Assembly (NCBI GenBank): GCA_020850325.1
Contig: JADZEW010000035.1
Location: 62,001 to 126,000 of the forward strand
Length of the DNA: 64,000 nt
Reading direction: 5' to 3'
Source of the DNA: Methanoregulaceae archaeon
GTDB taxonomy: Bacteria > Armatimonadota > Fimbriimonadia > Fimbriimonadales > Fimbriimonadaceae
How positions within the stretch are numbered: the first letter of the stretch is position 1; each line of letters starts with the position of its first letter. This document shows positions 16,662-18,175 of this stretch, in pieces. The notes beneath the pieces are model-generated. The model saw nothing but the letters and a program-made list of their open reading frames with translations, ran no database searches and had not been told where the DNA came from. A program made the position numbers and the translations under genes.

Positions 16662-17480
16662 TTAGGATCCAGGGGAGGGCGCTGCTCCGTCAGCGCCAAC
16701 CGTTTGCGTCGCCCAGCGCGCACGAAGGCGGTTCGTCATCCAGAGGCTGACGTCCCAGATGTCAGCGAGGGGCTTGCCGTCCATATCGGTCCACTGGTAG
16801 TGGGGGGGCCCGAACTCAGGATCGACCGTGAGGAACGAGGCTTTTCTGCTGACATGCGCCGCCAGGATCTGATCCCACCAGCCTTCGAACACCTTGACCT
16901 TATCCTCCCACGCGGGGAGCCGCGGATCGGGAACCTGGGGACCCTCCTCGAATCCGATGCGGGCATGGATGTGCCGCGTGCGGCTTAGGGCGAGCTTCAT
17001 CGCATCGCCAAAGCCGCTCAGCATCGATTCGGTCACCACGCACCAGTGGCTAAGATCGGCGCACAGCCATAGGTCGGGCAACGCCTTCAGGTAACGCTCG
17101 GTGCTCAGCGGCTCGTTCAGCAGTCGCCCGCGGTGGGTCTCGAAGTTGACCGGAAACGGAACGCCCTTCGTCAGTTCGACGAGCTTGCCCAGGAGATCCA
17201 GCCCCTGTTCGTAGCTCATCGAGGCGGCGCCCACGTGGATCGTCGCGCCGTCAGCTCCGCAGTCGACCGCTTCCCCCAAGTCGCGTTTGAACTGCTCGGG
17301 GTTCGCGCCACCGACCATCGCCATGTAGCGCACTCCCGCTTTCTCGATCGCTGGCTTGAGTTCAAAGTGCGGACGGATCCAGTCCTCGAATCCGTCGTAG
17401 CCTGCGACCTTGATCTTGGCGAGCTTCTCGTCGAGCGTGCCGCCCATGCCCCAAAGCGTTTTGTAGTAGCGCACCACCAT
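16662..17480 (-). CDS. Sugar phosphate isomerase/epimerase-like TIM barrel
   Basis: 272 residues of the xylose isomerase-like AP-endonuclease-2 superfamily: KIKVAGYDGFEDWI, GADGATIHVGAAS, PFPVNFETHRGRLLNEP, LWLCADLSHWCV and RHIHARIGFEEGPQV give the repeated strand ends with acidic and His metal ligands (Glu, Asp, His). The reaction is unknown. The C-terminal residues (VGADGAAPSPGS) are encoded by a dispersed hairpin repeat (16672-16697), so the end of the protein has been shaped by a repeat insertion. It lies two bases upstream of lpxB. Confidence 0.75.
   Translation of the reverse strand: MVVRYYKTLWGMGGTLDEKLAKIKVAGYDGFEDWIRPHFELKPAIEKAGVRYMAMVGGANPEQFKRDLGEAVDCGADGATIHVGAASMSYEQGLDLLGKLVELTKGVPFPVNFETHRGRLLNEPLSTERYLKALPDLWLCADLSHWCVVTESMLSGFGDAMKLALSRTRHIHARIGFEEGPQVPDPRLPAWEDKVKVFEGWWDQILAAHVSRKASFLTVDPEFGPPHYQWTDMDGKPLADIWDVSLWMTNRLRARWATQTVGADGAAPSPGS
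16672..16697. repeat. Dispersed GGGCGCTGCTCCGTCAGCGCC repeat, copy 1
   Basis: The word GGAGGGCGCTGCTCCGTCAG plus CGCC is found again at 44565-44590, and a variant at 18307-18330. GCGCTG and CAGCGC form a six-base stem with loop CTCCGT. This copy lies in the coding sequence of the epimerase C-terminus. Confidence 0.75.
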
Positions 17481-17604: not shown

Positions 17605-17770
17605 TGAAATCGGAGGATCGTTTGTTCGGTCTTTCTAAGAACCAATGCCGAACGTCGCCACCGGGCGACGGCGGGGGACCCGAAAATGGGGTGAATCGCG
17701 CCATGGCGGCGCGTAGGGTGGTTTCTGGCCCGAACCCGGCAGCTAACCTCGTAGGCACATGCAGGAACCA
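17605..17770 (+). ncRNA. Cyclic-di-AMP (ydaO/yuaA) riboswitch
   Basis: The aptamer's conserved blocks appear in order: GCGGGGGACCC at about 17681-17691, GGGGTGAATCG at about 17689-17699 after a short spacer, GTAGGG at 17713-17718, CCCGAACCCGGCAGCTAACC and CGTAGGC up to about 17756. The upstream half (GCCGAACGTCGCC with ACCGGGCGACGGC) forms the expected P-stems. Members of this class bind c-di-AMP and usually switch genes off. It lies 25-190 bases ahead of a 97-codon gene on the same strand, with a ribosome site between. Confidence 0.9.
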
Positions 17771-17793
17771 GAGAAATCTGGAGGAGGTTGTGA

Positions 17794-18087
17794 ATGCTGA
17801 CGGAGAATGAGGTTCGGCGACGAGTCGCGATTCTGTTTGAGTTGGATCTCGCGCCGATGCGGAAAGTGCGTGCCCTCTTGAGGGTCGCGCGATCTGTGAA
17901 GCTTCAAGCTCGCGCTCTACATCACGCCCGTGCCCTATCTGCCCAAGCGCAGGACCGCAACACGGCCGCGCATCTCGACCGCATCGTCCGGGCCCTCCGC
18001 GCGCTGTACGAGGAAGTACGGTTGGTGGCGCACCGGGTGTTGATGGGACGGGTGCCGGCGCCAGTGGGCGTCCCGAGTTTGGCCTAG
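17794..18087 (+). CDS. 97-aa protein of unknown function under the c-di-AMP riboswitch
   Basis: 97 residues from an ATG preceded by a strong GGAGGAGG at about 17777-17785. It is rich in Arg, Leu, Ala and Val and should be almost wholly helical (residues 3-80, VRRRVAILFELDLAPMRKVR...), with a Pro-containing tail. No membrane helix, signal peptide or known domain is seen. A terminator follows (18145). The gene stands alone behind a riboswitch whose usual targets handle potassium, osmolytes or cell-wall remodelling, so a role in turgor or wall control is a reasonable guess and no more. Confidence 0.7.
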   Translation: MLTENEVRRRVAILFELDLAPMRKVRALLRVARSVKLQARALHHARALSAQAQDRNTAAHLDRIVRALRALYEEVRLVAHRVLMGRVPAPVGVPSLA

Positions 18088-18144
18088 AGTCGGTAATGGG
18101 GCCGCCCGCTCGATGAAGAACGGGATCGGTCAAGTGACATCAAG

Positions 18145-18175
18145 AGCCGCCGTCTTCGGCGGCTTTTCTTTGTTT
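18145..18175 (+). terminator. Rho-independent terminator after the 97-aa gene
   Basis: AGCCGCCG and CGGCGGCT form a perfect eight-base stem around TCTT, followed by TTTCTTTGTTT. Confidence 0.9.

Follow-up and report, generated by a model that had tools for sequence, protein, structure and literature searches.

We find that a bona fide c-di-AMP riboswitch probably controls production of a small basic three-helix protein encoded by a dedicated monocistronic gene, with translation initiation as the likely point of control. Judged from sequence, the protein belongs to a new lineage-specific family under a known riboswitch class. The locus lies within the window, the whole 64,000-nt stretch of DNA that was analyzed, and comprises the following features.

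17636..17772, + strand: c-di-AMP (ydaO/yuaA) riboswitch aptamer (RF00379, 87.9 bits against a cut-off of 38, full model 1-134)
17768..17781, + strand: predicted expression-platform hairpin CCAGA-GAAA-UCUGG, overlapping the aptamer tail; its 3′ GG forms the first two bases of GGAGGAGG
17780..17787, + strand: Shine-Dalgarno sequence GGAGGAGG, ending 6 nt upstream of the ATG
17794..18087, + strand: gene for the 97-aa basic three-helix protein (family A), with an ATG start and conserved R8, K24, R26, L71, V75, and A79
18142..18167, + strand: intrinsic terminator with an 11-bp stem and T tract, probably ending a monocistronic unit

A c-di-AMP aptamer ahead of a conserved small gene

The Rfam covariance model RF00379, whose gathering cut-off is 38 bits, matches the plus strand of the window at 17636-17772 with an E of 3.7e-19 over model positions 1-134 of 134. 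The aligned match includes the conserved 3′ core CAGCUAACCUCG, and the AG[CU][UC]AA core is present in 134 of the 136 aptamers of the class. Between the window and a congener (G001), 136 of 137 aptamer positions are identical. By these measures the window riboswitch is an ordinary member of the RF00379 class, and its aptamer would be expected to bind c-di-AMP. The earlier note had read a c-di-AMP riboswitch and the gene behind it into positions 17605-18087; the covariance-model score bears it out as significant and full length, starting about 30 nt inside that interval. A gene for a diadenylate cyclase (PF02457, E 5e-39) is also present in this genome.

The 97-codon gene starts at 17794, 21 nt after the end of the aptamer, and 45 of 53 relatives carry a Shine-Dalgarno core of 5-6 nt ahead of the start. 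Because dN/dS relative to the congener is ~0.1 (dN 0.039, dS 0.372), we take this ORF to be a real coding gene under purifying selection. Of the 28 codons that differ between the two genes, 20 changed synonymously and 8 non-synonymously, with 22 of the 32 substitutions at third positions and 92% identity between the proteins; the same protein was also found in a Fimbriimonadaceae MAG contig. The 21-nt leader is identical in the two genomes, compared with 82% identity over the 150 nt upstream and 68% over the 200 nt downstream. Upstream, a 272-codon ORF (16662-17480) runs in the opposite direction, and an ArsR-type regulator and a SulP transporter follow on the same strand ~320 nt beyond the small gene. 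The terminator-like site at 18142-18167 fits the earlier description of this gene as the only one before a strong terminator. Operons headed by the small gene, with a Tad1-like gene or tandem copies behind it, do occur in other genomes.

A covarying hairpin at the Shine-Dalgarno sequence

There is no terminator between the aptamer and the start codon at the window locus, and translational control is therefore the simplest reading. In eight of the shortest related leaders, a hairpin of the form CCNNN-loop-N′N′N′GG directly abuts AGGAGG or AGGAGA. Its pairing is retained in 40 of 40 cells across these eight leaders, and in three of the five pairs both bases change; in a control with the partner shifted by 1-3 columns, pairing fell to 0-50%. 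Control at translation rather than termination is thus most likely in our reading of the leader.

Partition-function folding gave a Shine-Dalgarno accessibility of 0.39 for the full leader, 0.47 with the aptamer removed, and 0.37 with a shuffled aptamer. Since this energy model yields no aptamer-specific sequestration of the Shine-Dalgarno sequence relative to shuffled aptamers and picks out no competing structure, we make no claim from folding on ON versus OFF control. An OFF mechanism acting via termination is described for the kdp riboswitch of Bacillus thuringiensis (PMC6488665), and by analogy alone an OFF switch would be the default assumption for the riboswitch of the window.

The aptamer-gene pair recurs across the Fimbriimonadia

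Strict family A members were first found by a sequence search from the window protein alone, and a profile (A1) was built from 16 relatives. This profile identifies 33 copies in 29 of 113 Fimbriimonadia genomes, and RF00379 scores above cut-off at 136 aptamers in 84 of the 113. We observed that 27 of the 33 copies lie 20-110 nt after a same-strand aptamer and that one more comes second in a tandem pair. The remaining five are unlinked (G007:C6, G013:C25, G026:C4, G075:C124, and G077:C102), with no aptamer within 1.5 kb even under permissive filters; riboswitch control is therefore not obligatory. Homologues down to ~30% identity keep the same start and length. A family A search of 291 genomes of the phylum gave no match outside genomes already seen in the class. 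The pairing, whose recurrence the earlier note had set as a check, thus does recur in related genomes, and by sequence the 97-aa protein is part of a class-wide family, a larger case than that note stated.

A wider set was obtained by extracting the ORFs behind all 136 aptamers and iterating profiles seeded with either family A or a further family, B, encountered behind other aptamers. The two iterations converge on an overlapping set of 58 ORFs, which belong to 54 aptamers and 42 genomes. Of these ORFs, 53 come first after the aptamer, at a distance of 21-108 nt; iterative merging of the families could drift, and shuffled and reversed decoys gave 0 matches to the combined profile. Against whole genomes, the superfamily profile (47 members) gave 61 matches in 46 genomes and 25 genera. 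For 53 of these an aptamer lies no more than 130 nt upstream; the others are one tandem copy and seven unlinked genes. The 53 linked matches span 25 genera and two taxonomic families, and the seven unlinked copies mean that the profile does not find aptamer-linked genes only. The wider profile was itself derived from aptamer-linked ORFs, so the strict family A linkage figure is still the cleaner one. About half of the genomes with aptamers have no superfamily member. Some single aptamers are followed by two family members in tandem (L021, L078, L182).

A small helical protein and its probable family B relatives

The window protein is rich in Arg (16%), Leu (15%), and Ala (18%), with a pI of 11.8 and a net charge of +10. 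An AlphaFold2 model from 16 sequences (mean pLDDT 87) predicts a short helix (4-16) followed by a long helical hairpin (21-51 and 55-83). The almost all-helical, Arg/Leu/Ala-rich character assigned to the protein by the earlier note agrees with this prediction, as does its lack of a known domain with the search results: no Pfam or NCBIfam family scores above cut-off, and no relatives were found in Pfam, NCBIfam, PHROG, PADLOC, or PDB. Weak Pfam matches such as DUF5600 and COX5A were rejected (E above 0.02, far below cut-off), and the Foldseek and VIA-align 2 matches were set aside as generic helical proteins only (HscB, UvsY, RRF, and designed bundles; best Foldseek E 1.2). Within family A, R8 and A79 are invariant and K24, R26, L71, and V75 nearly so; K24 is the most conserved residue of the superfamily. 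Most strict members are strongly basic, with some distant ones neutral (pI 6.6).

Two family B genes are present in the genome of the window:

G000:C26:115375-115653: family B paralogue L002, with its own aptamer
G000:C26:111881-112159: family B paralogue L005, with its own aptamer, 3.5 kb apart from L002

The predicted topology of family B is similar to that of A (helices 2-24, 30-57, and 61-98; pLDDT 83), with conserved E8, K33, and R74 and a C-terminal PFMEYSS motif in most members. Profile-profile alignment with hhalign gave a probability of 65% and a P of 6e-5, or 0.011 with fewer sequences. The two families are probably homologous, which would make the two family B genes probable riboswitch-controlled paralogues of the window protein. 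Encapsulated ferritins in the Foldseek list for family B (E 0.4-3) were rejected as not significant, and the conserved E8, K33, and R74 suggest no iron site.

Other genes behind the aptamers

The five aptamers of this genome precede the family A gene of the window, the two family B genes, a Tad1-like gene, and a 246-aa ORF that has no Pfam match. Tad1 is a phage cyclic-nucleotide sponge.

G000:C8:182728-183021, minus strand: Tad1-like gene (L003), with an RF00379 aptamer 48 nt upstream

For the Tad1-like family, matches were obtained to Thoeris anti-defense 1 chains in PDB (E 4.8e-8) and to PHROG 2428 (2e-18); the family is present in 78 copies in 67 of the 113 class genomes. Sixteen of these copies are aptamer-linked and 62 are not. 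In 11 of the 16 linked cases a superfamily gene lies between the aptamer and the Tad1-like gene, and three more operons have other small ORFs in this position.

Additional genes were observed at greater or lesser distance behind class aptamers. In ~22 genomes, an RF00379 aptamer is followed after 200-400 nt by hisB, the gene for imidazoleglycerol-phosphate dehydratase (loci include L024, L043, L060, L072, L126, and L131), an unexpected link from c-di-AMP to histidine biosynthesis. MFS transporter genes occur ~280-450 nt behind the aptamer in about eight genomes (L032, L080, L083, L085, L167, L175), asparagine synthase genes directly behind it in two genomes from other families of the order (L046, L095), and SurA-like and octopine-dehydrogenase-like genes behind some others.

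Alternative explanations and proposed mechanism

The ArsR-type regulator and SulP transporter, same-strand and ~320 nt on, would be candidate targets if the riboswitch were real and the small ORF incidental, with an RNA or a gene further downstream as the regulated product. We regard this as extremely improbable: the low dN/dS (0.1), the start and length shared by homologues down to ~30% identity, the conserved Shine-Dalgarno sequence, the terminator after the ORF, and the recurrence of the linkage with different downstream genes all speak for the ORF itself. The linkage could also reflect common descent of a single locus, with the two elements neighbors by chance and not through selected regulation. 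All cases do fall within one class and some pairs are near-identical relatives; however, divergent superfamily members are aptamer-linked at several loci per genome (three in the genome of the window, three in G046) and the leader hairpin covaries, making this very unlikely.

A different question is what the proteins do, and here they could themselves bind c-di-AMP or another cyclic nucleotide as a sponge, buffer, or receptor, forming with the Tad1-like protein a feedback module in which the same signal sets expression. The 11 operons of aptamer, superfamily gene, and Tad1-like gene, the three with other small ORFs, and the match of the Tad1-like family to Thoeris anti-defense 1 chains are consistent with this. 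Tad1 binds cyclic nucleotides, cAA weakly, and the Acb2 protomer consists of one short N-terminal helix and two long antiparallel helices (review, PMC12043709), as the family A model is also predicted to do. Together, these operons and the reviewed properties of Tad1 and Acb2 make a nucleotide-binding role conceivable. Against it, neither family A nor B has a sequence match or a significant Foldseek match to Acb2 or Tad1, Acb2 is not among the Foldseek and VIA-align 2 matches listed for family A, and arrangements of three helices are very common. Most strict family A genes also lie outside Tad1-like operons, and 62 of the 78 Tad1-like genes lack an aptamer link. We consider this role unlikely. 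Somewhat less likely again is a host c-di-AMP control module in which riboswitch-regulated three-helix and Tad1-like proteins would bind or buffer the nucleotide that sets their expression, as chromosomal relatives of phage sponges turned into signalling parts.

We therefore return to riboswitch control of a dedicated small protein as the probable explanation. In this mechanism c-di-AMP would bind the aptamer at 17636-17772, and the aptamer state would act on translation start through the hairpin that touches the Shine-Dalgarno sequence. As an OFF switch, it would allow the protein to be produced once c-di-AMP levels drop, for instance under K+ limitation. More tentatively, the 97-aa protein may be a cytosolic small regulator acting through the conserved basic residues R8, K24, and R26, whose partner could be a protein, a nucleic acid, or a nucleotide. 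For its molecular activity, a protein adaptor or inhibitor would be the leading, if tentative, candidate; nucleic-acid or ribosome binding is possible, cyclic-nucleotide binding doubtful, and any other activity quite improbable. The neutral distant members (pI 6.6) argue against nucleic-acid binding as a family-wide role. The protein may thus be a new c-di-AMP effector, as the earlier note proposed, and its family may be the principal direct branch of riboswitch control by c-di-AMP in the Fimbriimonadia.

Relation to known systems

Known targets of c-di-AMP riboswitches are K+ and osmolyte transport and wall hydrolases, and no domain of these classes was found in the 97-aa protein with Pfam or NCBIfam. 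The riboswitch of the window resembles other RF00379 riboswitches in its full-length aptamer, which clears the gathering score by a wide margin, and in the gene that closely follows it, and differs in that the apparent target is an orphan small protein and in the covarying hairpin at the Shine-Dalgarno sequence. In the kdp example a terminator precedes kdpFABC (PMC6488665), whereas the window locus has the Shine-Dalgarno hairpin instead. A literature search found no work joining Armatimonadetes and riboswitch, nor any on c-di-AMP riboswitches in the phylum, and as far as the searched libraries show, both the protein family and its regular association with a riboswitch are new.

DarA and DarB, as PII-like and CBS-domain proteins, differ from a helical hairpin, and the 97-aa protein has no domain match. 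The likeness is one of kind: DarA and DarB of Bacillus subtilis are small stand-alone members of the c-di-AMP network that had no known function at the time of their discovery (PMC7900238), and the 97-aa protein would be another such small stand-alone protein.

With respect to the phage sponges, family A has no sequence match to Acb2 or Tad1 (phmmer and profile search of PDB sequences) and no significant fold match; the predicted layout of one short and two long helices is shared with Acb2, and Tad1-like host genes share riboswitch operons with the small-protein superfamily. As these shared operons suggest, host signalling proteins and the nucleotide sponges of phages may be linked in evolution. 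Riboswitches mark genes that belong to the biology of their ligand, and one for c-di-AMP that points repeatedly to an uncharacterised protein family may offer a direct entry to new c-di-AMP effectors.
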